Source: Burkholderiales bacterium (GTDB lineage: Bacteria > Pseudomonadota > Gammaproteobacteria > Burkholderiales > SG8-41). Taken from it: a stretch of DNA of 64,000 bases. Of this stretch, positions 21,975 to 50,391 are shown one piece after another; position 1 is the first letter of the stretch, and the number at the start of each line of letters is the position of its first letter. Position numbers and translations under genes: made by a program. Below the pieces are notes generated by a model that had not been told where the DNA came from, did not search any database, and was given only the letters and a program-made list of their open reading frames with translations. Location of the stretch: positions 310,001-374,000 of the forward strand of contig DATAJS010000009.1 in NCBI GenBank assembly GCA_036262035.1, read 5' to 3'.

Positions 21975-22231
21975 GCCGGCAAATCTCCTCGAAGGTCGTT
22001 CTCTTGTGAGCGCGCGGCAGGACGCGATGGGTGAAGCTAGAGACCGTCGGCCGGGAAAAAACCTGTCAGGCGCTGGCGCAGTTACTTGCGGAGCGTGGAC
22101 CAGAGTCCTGTACGGGTGCGGCGGACAAAAATGGCCTGGTCGCGCGCTGCGCGAGTAAGCAACCCGCCGCGGCGCCGGTCTAATGCTGTGGAGCAACGCC
22201 GCGCCTCGCGCGCGCATCCGGGAGAGACGCC

Positions 22232-23122
22232 ATGGACCCTTTTCTTGCACCTGACAGCGCTCCCGAGGCGTTGATGACGCCGCCGCGCCGCGAGCGCTCG
22301 AGCCCCCGATCGGCGCTGCTCTGGGCGGCGATCCCGGCGCTGATCCTGGTATGCTGCATCGCCGTGCTGTTGTTCTACCGTTCGCAGCCCGAACCTCTGC
22401 CGGCCGAGCTCCCGCCCGCGCAGCCGCCGCCTCAGAGCGCGAGCGAGGCACCGCCCGCTGCGCCTGCCGAGCCCGCCGTGCGCTATCCGATCGCCGCCGA
22501 GCCCGAACAGGCGCTGCCGCGGCTCGAAGACAGCGACCCGGCGCTGCTCCATGCGCTGGCGATGCTCTTCGGCGAAGCGCGGCTCGCGGAGCTCTTCTAT
22601 CCGGATTCGATCGTGCGCAGGATCGTCGCGACCGTGGACAACCTGCCGCGGCACAAAGCGCCGCTCAGGATGAGGCCGGTCAAGCCCACGCGCGGCGCAT
22701 TCGAAACCACGGCCAGCCCGCGCGGCCCGACGATCGCCAACGCGAACGCGCGCCGCTATGCGCCGTACGTCGCGCTCGCCCGATCGATCGACGCGAAAGC
22801 GCTGGTGGCGGCGTACACCCGCCTCTATCCGCTGTTCCAGCGCGCCTACGAAGACCTCGGCTACCCCGGACGCTATTTCAACGATCGCCTCGTCGAGGCG
22901 ATCGACGACATGCTGGCGGCGCCGCAACCGTCTTCGCCCGTTCTGCTCGTGCGGCCGCGCGTGTTCTATGAATTCGCGGATCCCGATCTCGAGGCGCGCT
23001 CCGCGGGGCAGAAAGTCATGCTCCGCGTGGGGCCCGACAACGCGGCCGTCCTGAAGCAGAAGCTGCTCGAGATCCGCCGCGAGCTGACGACCGCACGGAA
23101 AGGGTTGAACGACATGCGATGA
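22232..23122 (+). CDS. DUF3014 membrane-anchored protein
   Basis: A 296-residue protein of the DUF3014 family, function unknown. It has a cytoplasmic N-tail with basic residues, one membrane helix (about 29-50), a Pro/Ala-rich linker (51-86) and an export-side domain (about 90-290). Typical sequences are FYPDSIVRRIVATVDNLPR, APLRMRPVKPTRGAF and RRYAPYVALARSIDAK. It is transcribed divergently from the ABC importer and lies 38 nt before a Bug gene; that adjacency may be accidental. Confidence 0.82.
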   Translation: MDPFLAPDSAPEALMTPPRRERSSPRSALLWAAIPALILVCCIAVLLFYRSQPEPLPAELPPAQPPPQSASEAPPAAPAEPAVRYPIAAEPEQALPRLEDSDPALLHALAMLFGEARLAELFYPDSIVRRIVATVDNLPRHKAPLRMRPVKPTRGAFETTASPRGPTIANANARRYAPYVALARSIDAKALVAAYTRLYPLFQRAYEDLGYPGRYFNDRLVEAIDDMLAAPQPSSPVLLVRPRVFYEFADPDLEARSAGQKVMLRVGPDNAAVLKQKLLEIRRELTTARKGLNDMR

Positions 23123-30209: not shown

Positions 30210-30949
30210 CGAGCCCCGACTGCAACGATTCCGAGCTGATGGCGGTGCTCATGTCGCGCGAGGTGCGCGACGGGGAAGTGTCGGCGTGCGGCGCGCTGTC
30301 GCACATACCCGCGGCCGCGCTGCTGCTCGCCAAGGCGCTGCACTCACCCGACGCCGAGCTCATCATCCTGAACACCTCGTTCAGGCCGTTCGCGACGTCG
30401 CGCCAGTTCCACTTTCTCGCGCAGCGCGGCGAGCTCGGGCTCTTCTTCGTGAGCGGCGTGCAGATCGACCGCCACGGCAACTACAACCTGCACCAGCTCG
30501 GCCCCGATCCCGACCACCCGAAAGCGCGTTTCCCCGGCGGCTACGGCGGGGGCCTCATCTACTACGCCGCGAGGCGCACGGTCGTCTTCCGCACCGAGCA
30601 CACGCGGCGCTCGCTGGTCGAGCGCGTGGATTTCATCTCCGCGGCAGGCAGCAGCCCGCCGGAGACCGTGCGGCTCGGCGGGCCCAGCAAGGTGATCACG
30701 CCGAAGGCGACGTTCGCGTTCGACCGCGCGTCGGCCAGCCTGCGCCTCGAATCGATCCATGCGCCTTACAGCTTCGACGAGATACGCGAGAACACCGGCT
30801 TCGACGTGGGCTCGACAGTTCCGCCGCCCACCCCGGCGCCGACCGAAGAGGAGCTCTCGACGCTGCGCGGCCACGTACGCAGCACGATGATCGACACCGG
30901 TACCTACGCGTCCTGGGCGGCAGCGACGCTGGGCGCGGTCACGGCATAG
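30206..30949 (+). CDS. Two-subunit CoA-transferase, beta subunit
   Basis: A 247-residue partner of the alpha subunit, read from a GTG at 30206 that overlaps the alpha stop (GTGA). The frame is open much further upstream but only as a shadow of the alpha gene. Features include GEVSACGALSHIPAAALLLAK, FFVSGVQIDRHGNYNLHQLG, and SKVITPKATFAFDRASASLRLESIHAPYSFDEIRENTGFD, typical of glutaconate-type CoA-transferase B subunits. The usual catalytic Glu motif (SENG) appears altered to VSACG. Its end overlaps the convergent SulP gene by 46 nt. Confidence 0.78.
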   Translation: MTSPDCNDSELMAVLMSREVRDGEVSACGALSHIPAAALLLAKALHSPDAELIILNTSFRPFATSRQFHFLAQRGELGLFFVSGVQIDRHGNYNLHQLGPDPDHPKARFPGGYGGGLIYYAARRTVVFRTEHTRRSLVERVDFISAAGSSPPETVRLGGPSKVITPKATFAFDRASASLRLESIHAPYSFDEIRENTGFDVGSTVPPPTPAPTEEELSTLRGHVRSTMIDTGTYASWAAATLGAVTA

Positions 30950-32646
30950 AGCGGCGGCGCGGGCGCGGCGACGACGTTGCGCCGGCCGATCTCGCGTATG
31001 CGCCCGCTGCGCACGAGCACGTGGCGCACGTCGTTGTTGACCCCGCAGAGATACATCGAGGCGCCGCCGCGGCGCACCCTCAGCGCGACTTCGGCCAGCA
31101 CGCGCGCGCCGCTCGTGTCGATGAAGTTGACCCGGCTCAGGTCGACGATGACGTCGGGCGGGCTGTCGGCGCTCAGGGCGAGGTCGAGCAGCGATTCCAG
31201 CACGTGCTGCGCCGCGCCGAAGTAGATCGAGCCGCGGATCCGGATCAACTGTGTCGGACGGTCGCCGGGCGGCAGACCCAGCACCTCGCGCAGTCCCTCG
31301 TACGAAGCCGCGTCCATCGCCGACCTGAACACGTGCGGATGCGACGTGCGGAGCAGGTACAGCATCAGCGACAGGATCACCCCGAGATAGATCGCGAACG
31401 CAAGGTCGCCGAAGAGCGTCGCGGCGAGCGTGACGGTCAGCACGATCGTCTCCGAGCGTCCTACACGCAGCACCTTGCGCATGTACCTGAAGTCGATCAA
31501 CGCCCAGCCCACGAGCATCAGCACGCCCGCCATGGCCGCCTCGGGCAGGTAGCGCGCGAGCGGCGCGATCGCGACGAGGGCGAGCACCAGGAAGACCGCC
31601 GAGAAGATCGCCGACAGCGGCGTCTTCGCGCCCGCCTCGTAATTGAGCCCGCTGCGGTTCAGCGATCCGCTCGCCGCGTACGCCGAGAAAAACGCGCCGG
31701 TGATGTTCGCCAACCCCTGCCCTATGAATTCCTGGTTGGCGTTGATGCGCTGCTCGGAGCGCGCGCCGATCGCGCGCGCGATCGACATCGCTTCGGTCAG
31801 TCCGACGATGGCGACCGCGACCGCCGGCGACATGGTCTTGCGCAGCACTTCGAACGACATGCGCGGCGGCGCGAAGTGAGGCACCGGCCCCGGCAGCGTC
31901 GCCAGCGTCGGGATGTGGTGCGCCGCCGAGAAGCCCGGCACGAACCGCAGGAGATAGGCATACACGCCGCCCGCCGCCATCGCGGCGATGAGGTACGGCG
32001 ATCGCGGGTAACGCCGCTTGAGCCCCAACGCGGCCAGCAGAGTGATGCCGGCGACCGAGGCGATGTACCAATCGATGTCGTTGGCGCGCAGCACGATGAA
32101 GCGCAGCGTCTCGCCGAAGCCCAGGCCGCGCGGGATCGAGAGGCCGAGGAAGTACTGCAACTGCCCGGCGACGATCAGGATTCCCGCCCCGCTCGTGAAC
32201 CCCACGATCACGGTCTGCGACACCAGGTTGACCAGCACCCCCAGGCGCATCAGCCCCATCGTGAGCTTGATGCACCCGGCGATGAGCGACATCGTGAGCA
32301 CGAGCTGCACGTACTCGTTGGAGAACGGCGACGAGACCGCGCTCATGGTCGAGAAGATCACGATCGAGGTGGCGGTCGTCGGCCCGGCCATGAGGTGCCA
32401 GCTCGAGCCGAACAGCGCCGCGATGATGGTCGGAACGATCGCGGCGTACAACCCGTATTCGGGAGGCATCCCGGCGATCGTCGCGAACGCCACACCCTGA
32501 GGGAGCACGATGAGCGCGCCCGTGGCGCCCGCCATGAGATCGGCGCGCACGCTCACCCGGTTGACGCGCGGCCACCAGGCGAGGAACGGGAGGAATCGCA
32601 GGAGCAGCGCCCGGACGTTGGGCGCGGCGGCGGAACCGGTCAGCAC
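30904..32646 (-). CDS. SulP-family anion transporter with C-terminal STAS domain
   Basis: A 580-residue inner-membrane transporter. The membrane part (about residues 20-440) has the SulP signatures LIVLPQGVAFATIAGMPPEYGLYAAIVPTIIAALFGSS and MSIARAIGARSEQRINANQEFIGQGLANITGAFFSAYAASGSLNRS. A cytoplasmic STAS domain (about 470-560) includes VIVDLSRVNFIDTSGARVLAEVA, where the Ser could be a regulatory site as in anti-sigma antagonists. Likely cargo is sulfate, bicarbonate or a dicarboxylate. The start is GTG at 32646. A TGTAAG-N17-GGTCT promoter matching those of the ECF operon at 48-49 kb lies just upstream. Confidence 0.9.
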   Translation of the reverse strand: MLTGSAAAPNVRALLLRFLPFLAWWPRVNRVSVRADLMAGATGALIVLPQGVAFATIAGMPPEYGLYAAIVPTIIAALFGSSWHLMAGPTTATSIVIFSTMSAVSSPFSNEYVQLVLTMSLIAGCIKLTMGLMRLGVLVNLVSQTVIVGFTSGAGILIVAGQLQYFLGLSIPRGLGFGETLRFIVLRANDIDWYIASVAGITLLAALGLKRRYPRSPYLIAAMAAGGVYAYLLRFVPGFSAAHHIPTLATLPGPVPHFAPPRMSFEVLRKTMSPAVAVAIVGLTEAMSIARAIGARSEQRINANQEFIGQGLANITGAFFSAYAASGSLNRSGLNYEAGAKTPLSAIFSAVFLVLALVAIAPLARYLPEAAMAGVLMLVGWALIDFRYMRKVLRVGRSETIVLTVTLAATLFGDLAFAIYLGVILSLMLYLLRTSHPHVFRSAMDAASYEGLREVLGLPPGDRPTQLIRIRGSIYFGAAQHVLESLLDLALSADSPPDVIVDLSRVNFIDTSGARVLAEVALRVRRGGASMYLCGVNNDVRHVLVRSGRIREIGRRNVVAAPAPPLYAVTAPSVAAAQDA

Positions 32647-32673: not shown

Positions 32674-32701
32674 AGACCGGCCGCGCCGCCCGAACCTTAC
32701 A
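32674..32701 (-). promoter_or_regulatory. ECF-type promoter (TGTAAG-N17-GGTCT) for the SulP transporter
   Basis: On the minus strand TGTAAGGTTCG, a spacer giving exactly 17 nt between boxes, then GGTCT at 32678-32674. The -10 box ends 27 nt before the GTG start at 32646. It matches three other sites at 48-49 kb in both boxes, in the spacer length and in the bases after the -35 box. Confidence 0.65.
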
Positions 32702-46576: not shown

Positions 46577-46918
46577 ATGGAACGGTATTCGATGGCAGGC
46601 AGCAAAGAACGCATACAGGACGCTCTACTCAACCAGTACAGGAAGCACGGCACGCGCATCCGGGTGGTTTTGCTCAACTCGGATGCCTTCGACGGCACGA
46701 TCGAATCGTTCGACGTCTATTCGATACGCCTGGCCTCGTCGGAACCGCTGCTGCTGCTCAAGACCAGCATCGCGATGATCGAGCCTGCGCCCAAGCACGG
46801 CAAAGTGCGGGCGCACGCGCCTCGCGTGCACACGACGCAGCACGGGACGCCGCCGGCGCGCACCGCTCCGGTGATCGAGCGCAAGCGCCGCCGCGTGGTG
46901 CTGCGCGACGATTCCTAA
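46577..46918 (+). CDS. Divergent Hfq-like RNA-binding protein
   Basis: A 113-residue protein whose first 75 residues fit the Sm fold of Hfq. IQDALLNQYRKHGTRIRVVLLNSDAFDGTIESFDVYSIRL matches Hfq Sm1 (QDPFLNxLRxxxxxVxxxLxNGxxxxGxIxSFDxFxIxL) in the GxIESFD core. Sm2 reads LLLLKTSIAMIEPA in place of the canonical YKHAISTV, so the proximal poly-U pocket His is gone. A basic tail of about 40 residues (HGKVRAHAPRVHTTQ, ERKRRRVVLRDDS) follows. The start is ATG at 46577 or at 46592. It is a candidate second Hfq, and a putative small-RNA locus lies 1.1 kb downstream. Confidence 0.72.
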   Translation: MERYSMAGSKERIQDALLNQYRKHGTRIRVVLLNSDAFDGTIESFDVYSIRLASSEPLLLLKTSIAMIEPAPKHGKVRAHAPRVHTTQHGTPPARTAPVIERKRRRVVLRDDS

Positions 46919-47955: not shown

Positions 47956-47992
47956 AAAAGAAAAGACCCGGCCTGAATCGCTTCAGGCCGGG
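47956..47992 (-). terminator. Strong intrinsic terminator for the minus strand
   Basis: An 11-bp perfect stem (CCCGGCCTGAA/TTCAGGCCGGG, 47967-47992) with a 4-nt loop is followed on the minus strand by TCTTTTCTTTT. It ends the sigma/anti-sigma operon or the small transcript that starts within it. Confidence 0.85.
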
Positions 47993-48061
47993 CCAAGCAG
48001 AAGCCCCAAGGAAGGTAGAAGGGCTCCTGTCCGCCGTGTGATCCGGAATGATCCGGCACTA
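47956..48061 (-). ncRNA. Putative small RNA of about 105 nt driven by an ECF promoter
   Basis: A TGTAAG-N17-GGTCT promoter at 48068-48095 points into a 105-nt interval that ends at the T-rich terminator 47956-47992. The transcript would contain the direct repeat CCGGATCA-TT-CCGGATCA near its 5' end, an unpaired pyrimidine run (CCCTTCTACCTTCCTT) complementary to Shine-Dalgarno sequences, and the terminator hairpin. A 27-codon frame (MSSAGSFRITRR...) also begins at 48066 right after the -10 box. The promoter match and terminator are direct observations; the RNA itself is inferred. Confidence 0.5.
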
Positions 48062-48067
48062 CTCATG

Positions 48068-48095
48068 AGACCGGACTGCCCGGAGAAACCTTACA
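48068..48095 (-). promoter_or_regulatory. ECF-type promoter (TGTAAG-N17-GGTCT) at the end of the anti-sigma gene
   Basis: The stop codon TAA of the anti-sigma gene is part of the -35 box TGTAAG (48095-48090). Exactly 17 nt later comes GGTCT (48072-48068). The segment GGTCTCATGAG is also present at the sigma promoter (49330-49357). Confidence 0.65.
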
Positions 48096-48795
48096 CCCGC
48101 CCTTTCACGAAAAGCTTCTCGGTGCGCTTGGCGATCTTGGGCGACCCCGCGACGACGATGTAACCGCCGCTGCCGGCCGGGCTCACCAGCGCGGTCATGC
48201 GCCGGTCGGCGACCAGGGCGCGCGAGCCGACCGGGTAATCGGGCACCAGGATCACGCTCACCGGGCCGTCGGGCGTATCGAGCACGAGGTGGTCGCACTC
48301 GGTCTCGGGCATGTAGCAGCGCGCGGCATAGTCGACTTTGACGCCCTCCTGGCGCAGCGACAGTCCCAGGCGCTTCAAGCCTTCTTCCATCGCCACGGTG
48401 TCGACGCCGCGGGCTTCGTCGAGATAGGCGGGCTGCTGCTCCACCACCATCGCGATCGCCGCGACCGCGGGATGCGACGGACCGACCGCTTCCATCGGCG
48501 CGGACACCGCGTCCACGATTTGCGGACCGGCGAAGCCCATGAGCACCGAAGCGCCCAAAACGGCCGCCGCGGCGGCGTAAGGCCAGCGCGGCTTGGCGCG
48601 CTTGCCGTAGAGCACGCGGTCGGCGAGCCCCTGCGGCACGGGCACGAGCGCGGCTTCGGCGATCCGCGTGTCGAGCTCGTCGACGCGCAACGACAGCCGC
48701 GAGCACTCCGCACACTCGGCGAGATGGGCTTCCAGCTCGGCGCTACGCTCCCGCGGCGCCGCCAGCAGCGATCTTCTGGTTTCGAGGCAATTCAT
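48091..48795 (-). CDS. DUF3379-type anti-sigma factor
   Basis: A 234-residue membrane protein. The cytoplasmic N-terminus MNCLETRRSLLAAPRERSAELEAHLAECAECSRL carries the His-X3-Cys-X2-Cys zinc motif (HLAECAEC). A membrane helix follows at about 75-95 (AAAAAVLGASVLMGFAG), and the periplasmic domain contains a Cys pair (CYMPETEC) and the DUF3379-like VSVILVPDYPVGSRALVADRRMTALVSPAGSGGYIVVAG. The ATG overlaps the sigma stop by 4 nt. This pair should be controlled by envelope conditions. Confidence 0.85.
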   Translation of the reverse strand: MNCLETRRSLLAAPRERSAELEAHLAECAECSRLSLRVDELDTRIAEAALVPVPQGLADRVLYGKRAKPRWPYAAAAAVLGASVLMGFAGPQIVDAVSAPMEAVGPSHPAVAAIAMVVEQQPAYLDEARGVDTVAMEEGLKRLGLSLRQEGVKVDYAARCYMPETECDHLVLDTPDGPVSVILVPDYPVGSRALVADRRMTALVSPAGSGGYIVVAGSPKIAKRTEKLFVKGRV

Positions 48796-49328
48796 TTCGA
48801 CGACTCCCTTGCGGCCGCGCCGGGCTCCCGCCTCAGCGCCTGCCGCGCCCGGGTGAGCCGCGTCATCACGGCTCCCGGCGTAAGCTGCATCATCTGTGCG
48901 ATCTCTTCGCAGCTGAATCCTCCGACCACCTGCAGCAGCAGCGGCTCCCGGTACGACTCGGGCAGCGCGTGCAGCGCTTCGCGCATCTCCAGCTCGGCCG
49001 ACACGCTCGCCAGGCGCAGGTCCTCGATCGCGTCGAGGTCGGCGCCCTCTTCCACGTCCAGGCGCTTGCGCTCGTGCAGCCGCGCATTCTCGTTGCGCAG
49101 GATCGTGTACAGCCAGCTCTTCGCGGCACCCTGCTCGCGCAAGGCCGCGCGCGCGCCCCACGCACGGGCGAACGTCTCCTGCACCAGGTCCTCCGCGACG
49201 AAACGGTCGCGGCAGAGCCAGTACGCATAGCGATAAAGCTCGGCGGAGTACGCTCTGACGAGCGATTCGAAGCTTGGATTGCTCAACTCGGATTGACCTG
49301 CGGCCGGAAAGCGGCCGTCCTTGCTCAT
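48792..49328 (-). CDS. ECF RNA polymerase sigma factor
   Basis: A 178-residue sigma-70 family factor with region 2 (FESLVRAYSAELYRYAYWLCRDRFVAEDLVQETFARAW) and region 4 (LPESYREPLLLQVVGGFSCEEIAQMM through AVMTRLTRARQALRRE). The ATG at 49328 lies one base after the -10 box of its own promoter match, so if that promoter is used translation probably begins downstream, for example at the TTG at 49286 (L15), which precedes NPSFESLV. Regions 1.1 and 3 are missing. The first ECF factor of the window (15229-15828) belongs to another group. Confidence 0.9.
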   Translation of the reverse strand: MSKDGRFPAAGQSELSNPSFESLVRAYSAELYRYAYWLCRDRFVAEDLVQETFARAWGARAALREQGAAKSWLYTILRNENARLHERKRLDVEEGADLDAIEDLRLASVSAELEMREALHALPESYREPLLLQVVGGFSCEEIAQMMQLTPGAVMTRLTRARQALRREPGAAARESSK

Positions 49329-49329
49329 G

Positions 49330-49357
49330 AGACCCGGACGGGGCGGGAAAGCTTACA
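49330..49357 (-). promoter_or_regulatory. ECF-type promoter (TGTAAG-N17-GGTCT) for the sigma/anti-sigma operon
   Basis: TGTAAGCTTTC at the -35 side (49357 downward), 17-nt spacer, GGTCT (49334-49330). Its -35 box and that of the divergent promoter at 49368-49395 form the perfect inverted repeat AAGCTTACAC...GTGTAAGCTT at 49349-49376. Confidence 0.68.
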
Positions 49358-49367
49358 CGACCCGGTG

Positions 49368-49395
49368 TGTAAGCTTCGACCTCGGTCCCCGGTCT
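49368..49395 (+). promoter_or_regulatory. ECF-type promoter (TGTAAG-N17-GGTCT) for the OmpA-like lipoprotein
   Basis: TGTAAGCTTCG, exactly 17 nt between boxes, GGTCT at 49391-49395, 32 nt before the ATG at 49428. It is back to back with the sigma operon promoter, with 10 nt between the two -35 boxes. Confidence 0.7.
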
Positions 49396-49427: not shown

Positions 49428-49967
49428 ATGCACCGCACCATCGCTGCTGCAGCCGTCCTGGCCGCCATGGCGGGCTGCGCTTCCACGCCGCCCGCGAGCT
49501 CGAACGCCTCCACTTCCAGCACGCGCGCCACCGCACCCTCGACCAGCACGGCGCGTGCCCCGGCCGCTTCGAGCTCCGCCGCGCCGCGGGCGTCCACGGC
49601 GGGCACCGCCACCGGCGCCTCGACGGTCGCCGCGCCTTCGCAACGCAGCGTCTTTTTCGATTACGACAGCAACGTCGTCAAGGACGAGTACGGCACGGTC
49701 GTGAAGTCGAACGCGCAGTACCTGGCGAGCAAGCGCGGCACGGCCGTCCGCATCGAAGGCAACACCGACGAGCGCGGCAGCCGCGAATACAACCTCGCGC
49801 TCGGCCAGCGCCGCGCGGACGCGGTGAAACAGCACCTCACCCTGCTCGGCGTTCCGGCGCAGCAGATCGAAACCGTCAGCTTCGGCGAGGAGAAACCGCG
49901 CGCCGACGCGCAGGACGAGAAAGCATACGAGCAGAACCGCCGCGCCGACATCGTTTACGGCCGCTGA
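49428..49967 (+). CDS. OmpA/Pal-family peptidoglycan-associated lipoprotein
   Basis: A 179-residue outer-membrane lipoprotein. The signal ends at the lipobox MAGC (Cys at about 17), followed by a low-complexity Ser/Thr/Ala linker (about 18-70). The OmpA-C domain (about 72-179) reads RSVFFDYDSNVVKDEYGTVV, VRIEGNTDERGSREYNLALGQRRADAVKQHL and ENRRADIVYGR, with the DAP-binding Asp/Arg pattern. It lies outside a tol-pal context, under a promoter shared with an ECF sigma operon. The ATG at 49428 follows CAGGAGA. Confidence 0.88.
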   Translation: MHRTIAAAAVLAAMAGCASTPPASSNASTSSTRATAPSTSTARAPAASSSAAPRASTAGTATGASTVAAPSQRSVFFDYDSNVVKDEYGTVVKSNAQYLASKRGTAVRIEGNTDERGSREYNLALGQRRADAVKQHLTLLGVPAQQIETVSFGEEKPRADAQDEKAYEQNRRADIVYGR

Positions 49968-50028: not shown

Positions 50029-50391
50029 ATGCAGACCAAGCAGTGGCAGTACGGACTCACCCTCGTTTTCGGCCTTTTGCTCCTCTCCATGCCGTGGCTG
50101 TTGCGCTTCTACGACGACATCCCGGTTCGCAGCGTCGACTTCTACGTGATCGGGGCGATCATGGTCGCCTGCGCCGCATTGGCGCTGCACCGGCGCTCGG
50201 TGGCGGCGTCGTGGGTGATGCCGTCGCTCGGCCTGTGGATGCTCGCCTCGCCGTGGCTGCTCGGCTTCATGCAGGTCATCGAGGCGCGCAACAGCGCGTG
50301 GCTGGTCGGCGGCGCGGTCTTCCTGCTGTCGCTGTGGGCGCTGCTCGAGCGGATGTCCGCCGCCCGCACCGGCCGGACGTTCGCCAGCTAA
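50029..50391 (+). CDS. SPW-repeat membrane protein
   Basis: A 120-residue protein with four membrane helices and the SPW motif repeated as MPWLLRF (about residues 21-27) and SPWLLGF (about 74-80). It belongs to the SPW-repeat family of unknown function and lies 61 nt after the OmpA-like lipoprotein gene in the same direction. It probably shares the ECF promoter and thus the envelope-stress theme. Confidence 0.82.
   Translation: MQTKQWQYGLTLVFGLLLLSMPWLLRFYDDIPVRSVDFYVIGAIMVACAALALHRRSVAASWVMPSLGLWMLASPWLLGFMQVIEARNSAWLVGGAVFLLSLWALLERMSAARTGRTFAS

Follow-up and report, generated by a model that had tools for sequence, protein, structure and literature searches.

The window, the whole 64,000-nucleotide stretch of DNA that was analysed, carries on its minus strand a gene for an ECF sigma factor (48792..49328) followed, with a 4-nt overlap, by a gene for a DUF3379 membrane anti-sigma factor (48091..48795; PF11859, E 1e-22). 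The 178-residue sigma protein has regions 2 and 4 only (PF04542 and PF08281), without region 3, and matches 19 sigma chains in the PDB; its score against NCBIfam PRK12517 is 178 bits, below the cut-off of 197. In keeping with an ECF sigma factor, a two-element promoter motif precedes its own operon. Divergently, on the plus strand, lie a gene for an OmpA-family, Pal-like lipoprotein (49428..49967; PF00691; TIGR02802 Pal, 136.6 bits against a cut-off of 125.35) and, after a gap of 61 nt on the same strand, a gene for an SPW-repeat membrane protein (50029..50391; PF03779, E 1e-23), which is likely to be co-transcribed with the lipoprotein gene.

Residues C3, H24, C28 and C31 are invariant in all ten DUF3379 proteins that were aligned, the kept residues being those of an Hx3Cx2C zinc motif and an additional cysteine. 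The motif sits in the N-terminal helical domain, as in zinc-binding class I anti-sigma factors, with a zf-HC2 match that reaches only E 0.04. A single hydrophobic stretch near residues 72-94 was seen in each of the four DUF3379 proteins checked (residues 76-94 in the window protein). The structural model of the anti-sigma factor (mean pLDDT 77) contains helices at residues 3-12, 19-49 and 55-63 and a C-terminal helix-and-strand domain. Searching by sequence returned no solved relatives; with Foldseek the best eight matches to the model were RseB/MucB, at a probability of 1.00 but with E-values of 0.003-0.024 and a TM of 0.3 over ∼ 100 columns, a match that is weak but consistent. RseA-like and RseB-like functions combined in one DUF3379 chain would fit such a model. 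Judging from the overlapping gene order, the anti-sigma factor would bind its cognate sigma factor.

The motif TGTAAG-N17-GGTCT has exactly four matches in the window, compared with a mean of 0.00 in 100 dinucleotide shuffles, and all four lie on the strands and at the positions given in the original prediction. One exact match (49330..49357, minus strand) stands before the sigma/anti-sigma operon, as autoregulation would have it, and is conserved before orthologous operons. The second (49368..49395, plus strand) is a divergent candidate promoter for the lipoprotein–SPW pair, 32 nt before the lipoprotein ATG, the third (48068..48095, minus strand) is found at the end of the anti-sigma gene, and the fourth (32674..32701, minus strand) lies 27 nt before the GTG of a SulP gene. 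The agreement in boxes, spacer and the bases after the -35 box that had been described for these sites was verified: the spacer is 17 nt at all four, and the -35 box is followed by CTTT, CTTC, GTTT or GTTC. It had also been claimed that the window holds no other correctly spaced pair. This stands for the strict motif, of which there is no fifth copy, and falls for weaker sites, namely AGTAAG-N17-GGTCT at 22154..22181 (plus strand), 50 nt before a DUF3014 gene (22232-23122), and a weak divergent candidate, TGACAGGTTT...CGGTCT (TGACAG-N17-GGTCT), at 22041..22068 (minus strand), before an ABC-ATPase-like ORF. That the four strict sites serve as promoters for a single stress sigma factor is almost certain.

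At the operon promoter the sigma ATG (49328) is only 1 nt past the -10 box, as it is also in genome G024 and in Cycloclasticus, so that one of the two starts, that of translation or that of transcription, departs from expectation. Translation could begin downstream, at TTG 49286, which aligns with the orthologues; alternatively, a leaderless transcript would begin unusually near the promoter. The working start is probably TTG 49286.

Conservation of the motif follows that of the anti-sigma gene closely. The extended form TGTAAG-NTT-N13-CGGTCT is present in 10 of 10 family genomes with a DUF3379 orthologue and in 0 of 25 without one (Fisher P = 5e-9), and presence or absence of the two is thus concordant in all 35 family genomes searched for both. 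Three genomes of the same genus have neither anti-sigma gene nor motif, which means that no near neighbour tests the regulon. In the relatives the sites precede the sigma operon, from which a tiny lipoprotein gene often separates them, and the -35 box is mostly followed by (G/A/C/T)TTT. In other families of the order TGTCAG or GGTCAG-N17-GGTCT and TGTAAG or CGTAAG-N17-TGTCT were found in this position with the same spacer, while two or three divergent orthologues there have no motif before the sigma operon. The extended motif is also missing from 10 further genomes of the order-wide sample, whose DUF3379 genes are more distant, and several of these have variants. The full motif also occurs in non-coding sequence of Pseudoalteromonas, Cycloclasticus, Aliikangiella and an Ectothiorhodospiraceae MAG; in these, a stop codon intervenes between motif and ATG. 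Overall, the motif is present before most orthologous sigma operons, in strict or one-base variant form in the family, as variants in the order, and in four gammaproteobacteria.

A conserved GGTC that stands 8 nt ahead of the sigma ATG in Vibrio, Colwellia, Photobacterium and Ferrimonas was considered as a promoter with GAAA-type -35 boxes and was dropped, since it falls in an open N-terminal extension and is probably coding. Taking the internal ATG as the start overlooks this extension (for example FGKKK..PV.SDMDRQ; seen in L153-L163, L166, L171, L173, L175 and L179), which seems to be conserved among gammaproteobacterial sigma orthologues.

A weight matrix built solely from the sites of relatives was applied to 266 kb of the source genome; this sequence was chosen for holding sites, and the result speaks for cross-species agreement of the motif and not for a genome-wide ranking. 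Its top three hits were the promoters of an RNA on contig C11, of the window RNA and of the window sigma gene, the last scoring 27.5, whereas Markov-shuffled window sequence gave no hit at any matrix threshold, the lowest included. Two MerR genes lie behind sites, and the sites might in principle be bound by some other regulator, activating or repressing, such as a MerR-type protein of the same gene islands, instead of being sigma promoters. However, the motif consists of two unlike elements at a constant 17-nt spacing and contains no palindrome; moreover, it tracks the sigma/anti-sigma pair across genomes and stands before the sigma gene itself at a distance suited to a promoter. We therefore regard a separate regulator as highly improbable and treat the sites as candidate sigma promoters.

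A pattern search of the genome (7.14 Mb) gave 11 strict sites, with 0 in the reversed control, and 25 relaxed sites (NGTAAG-N17-GGTCY) with 5 in the control, so some of the 25 may be chance matches. For at least 20 of them a coding-like start follows on the right strand at a distance of 0-112 nt (P ∼ 3e-7; the null was made generous on purpose, with 30% of positions qualifying). Rather than being scattered at random, the relaxed sites cluster around three DUF3379 genes, with 13 of the 25 at most 20 kb from one of these (expected 0.42; P ∼ 4e-17). One strict site (G000:C4:12488-12515; L002) is shortly upstream of a tRNA-like sequence (GCCGGCATAGCTCAGTTGGTAG...), either by chance or because the tRNA is under control of the sigma factor.

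The three DUF3379 anti-sigma genes of the genome are that of the window and two orphans, on contigs C8 (60% identical) and C32 (40% identical), neither of which has a sigma gene beside it. The genome has one sigma factor of this kind. Site TGTAAGAAGTGTTGCGCTGCACCGGTCG (TGTAAG-N17-GGTCG) precedes the start codon of the C8 orphan by 82 nt, and site GGTAAGGATTCGCGGCGCGCGCAGGTCT (GGTAAG-N17-GGTCT) that of the C32 orphan by 32 nt. Paralogues recur behind sites, comprising the two MerR regulators, two RNAs, DUF1508-like genes for small proteins (C23 and C32, with one of similar look on C8), several Bug/TctC receptors and a TctB-like gene. Enrichment of Bug/TctC genes is not claimed, because the genome holds at least 150 of them (607 first-look candidates, of which 150 were scored, all above the Pfam cut-off, on 32 contigs) and Bug hits alone prove little. 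Adjoining the C32 orphan is a transporter-like ORF (FGDLGTLIPF...; L068 3877-5103, minus strand), of molybdate/sulfate type by eye, which echoes the SulP link of the window.

These islands raise the question of which sigma factor they answer to. Their sites often read CGTAAG or GGTAAG with GGTCC, unlike the TGTAAG/GGTCT of the window, and the genome has nine further ECF-like genes; the core regulon could be real and the orphan islands could belong to another ECF sigma factor with a similar promoter. We consider this unlikely: none of the nine adjoins an orphan anti-sigma gene, the nearest is only 38% identical to the window sigma factor, and sites of the TGTAAG/GGTCT type are present in the islands too. 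With the islands assigned to the window sigma factor, the orphan anti-sigma factors would bind that same protein.

The third window site, where the anti-sigma gene ends, scores 33.2 with the relatives-only matrix, and the anti-sigma stop codon is contained in its -35 box (GTG TAA G). Behind it is a predicted small RNA of ∼ 100 nt (47957..48061, minus strand), for which folding gives a hairpin with a CU-rich loop and then a strong intrinsic terminator with a U tract. Since this stretch directly follows the operon, has a terminator at its end and gave no convincing close homologues by BLAST in family genomes, it might be merely the 3' untranslated end of the operon, without a separate regulatory RNA. 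Against this, the C11 paralogue, which has the same promoter and structure and its own terminator, stands alone with no operon before it, and four copies share the 5' stem and the CU loop, a 5' stretch (GGCGGACAGG) likewise being kept, although their terminators vary. A mere untranslated end is quite unlikely on these grounds, and a regulatory RNA with its own ECF-type promoter is the reading preferred here. The C8 member lies just after a Bug gene that has a CGTAAG-N17-GGTCC site of its own. A fourth double-hairpin RNA, at G000:C15:135176 (minus strand; L149; loop CUUCCUCCUCCUUG), is without an ECF-type site. Rfam scores are far below threshold, with 21.4 bits for RF02278 (Betaproteobacteria toxic small RNA; C11 copy only; gathering 50) and 27 bits for RF00519 (suhB/mmgR; gathering 41), and membership of either family is consequently not claimed. 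About 1 kb from the predicted RNA the window also encodes an Hfq-like protein with a long basic tail (46577-46918, plus strand; PF17209, E 1e-11), which scores below the NCBIfam Hfq cut-offs and may be a second, unusual Hfq.

The SulP-family permease with STAS domain (30904..32646, minus strand; TIGR00815, 368 bits, narrowly short of the 380-bit cut-off) had been placed in the regulon by the original prediction. The exact site before its GTG supports this, but the site is found before the SulP genes of 0 of 29 family relatives, a set that includes three same-genus genomes without the sigma factor and two genomes that bear it (G016 and G034). SulP as a conserved target was accordingly rejected, and its membership in the regulon is specific to the source genome and unreplicated. 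Either the site was recruited recently or, of the four, it deserves the least confidence. The lack of a site in so many relatives, sigma-bearing ones included, would also suit a chance match with SulP outside the regulon, to which we assign a lesser though appreciable likelihood, as both boxes, the spacer and the GTT extension are kept 27 nt before a start and relatives devoid of the sigma factor would not keep a site.

Regulon content differs between the source genome and its relatives, in a manner that suggests rewiring: transporters, MerR regulators and RNAs in the former, and Cys-rich exported proteins with NPCAAK repeats, cytochromes and tiny lipoproteins in the latter. In eight relatives (G024, G029, G034, G030, G007, G014, G016 and G005; L038, L046, L039, L042, L043, L048, L047 and L045) the motif precedes exported Cys-rich NPCAAK-repeat proteins, some of which carry a fused domain of the cytochrome P460 or cytochrome c type; no function was found for the NPCAAK-repeat proteins.

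Conservation and clustering, which run against two of the outcomes named beforehand as refuting it (absence of the motif from orthologous operons and random scatter), together support the original proposal that the sites form ECF promoters of an autoregulated sigma factor, and all the sequence tests applied came out in favour of the regulon. That proposal was drawn from the window alone and did not extend to the two orphan anti-sigma genes or the second RNA. With considerable confidence, TGTAAG-N17-GGTCT can be taken as the promoter of the sigma factor encoded at 49328-48792, serving its own operon, the divergent genes, a distant set, RNAs and anti-sigma feedback; transcription from the sites would be carried out by this sigma factor. 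In the proposed mechanism the sigma factor would transcribe its own operon, with the membrane-bound zinc-finger DUF3379 anti-sigma factor, and would also drive the divergent Pal-like lipoprotein and SPW genes and distant targets, many of them clustered round the two orphan anti-sigma genes with the same kind of promoter. A signal, presumably periplasmic or redox, would inactivate the anti-sigma factor and release the sigma factor, turning on a regulon that includes at least two related double-hairpin RNAs. The set may, as was originally suggested, amount to an envelope response. An ECF sigma factor alone can only activate; repression would become possible through an RNA made from its promoter that masks ribosome sites. 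The CU-rich loops would block ribosome binding sites and so provide a repressive arm for an activator. Newly made anti-sigma factors, of up to three kinds, would then close the loop. The complete layout, in which one ECF sigma factor is governed by three anti-sigma paralogues of the zinc-finger DUF3379 type (two being orphans, each in an island of its own), all are made from the sigma factor's own type of promoter, sibling anti-Shine-Dalgarno RNAs form the repressive arm and one promoter is built into the anti-sigma stop codon, is in our assessment evenly poised between true and false. If true, it would make signal integration at the level of the anti-sigma factor directly testable.

The literature searched (with subscription papers and ECF classification tables outside its scope) held no relevant paper on DUF3379 with a sigma factor or on a TGTAAG/GGTCT promoter in an ECF context. 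The motif thus offers a testable promoter code for an ECF/DUF3379 group without a paper in that literature, and one by which the regulon could be read directly from other genomes.

Among known systems, E. coli RpoE/RseA/RseB is alike in having an autoregulated ECF sigma factor, a membrane anti-sigma factor and a lipoprotein target, and the best, if weak, PDB matches of the DUF3379 model are to RseB/MucB. RpoE represses via the small RNAs MicA and RybB. Small RNAs with sigma-dependent promoters (MicA, RybB and MicL, the last from the 3' end of a gene) are a further likeness, the promoters being predicted ones here. The window system differs from that of E. coli in its TGTAAG/GGTCT promoter, its anti-sigma zinc motif, its three anti-sigma genes, its double-hairpin RNAs with a CU loop and its mostly different targets. 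About half of the membrane-bound zinc-binding class I anti-sigma factors (ASDIs) covered in PMC7406223 have Hx3Cx2C and one likely membrane helix, as the DUF3379 anti-sigma factor does; DUF3379 is not named in that paper. The double-hairpin RNAs of Burkholderia (RF02278) resemble those described here in their two hairpins, CU-rich unpaired stretch and several homologues per genome, and three of the Burkholderia copies share an upstream motif (PMC5688073); here, in contrast, an ECF-type promoter precedes two copies and the Rfam score is sub-threshold. NmsR of Neisseria meningitidis likewise comprises sibling RNAs with UC-rich anti-Shine-Dalgarno loops, from promoters that are sigma70-like in appearance and respond to RelA (PMC5362039), whereas the promoters in the window system are of ECF type. 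The proposed mechanism itself belongs to a known kind, that of ECF sigma and anti-sigma factors; what is unusual is the anti-sigma layout, to which the sibling RNAs are added.
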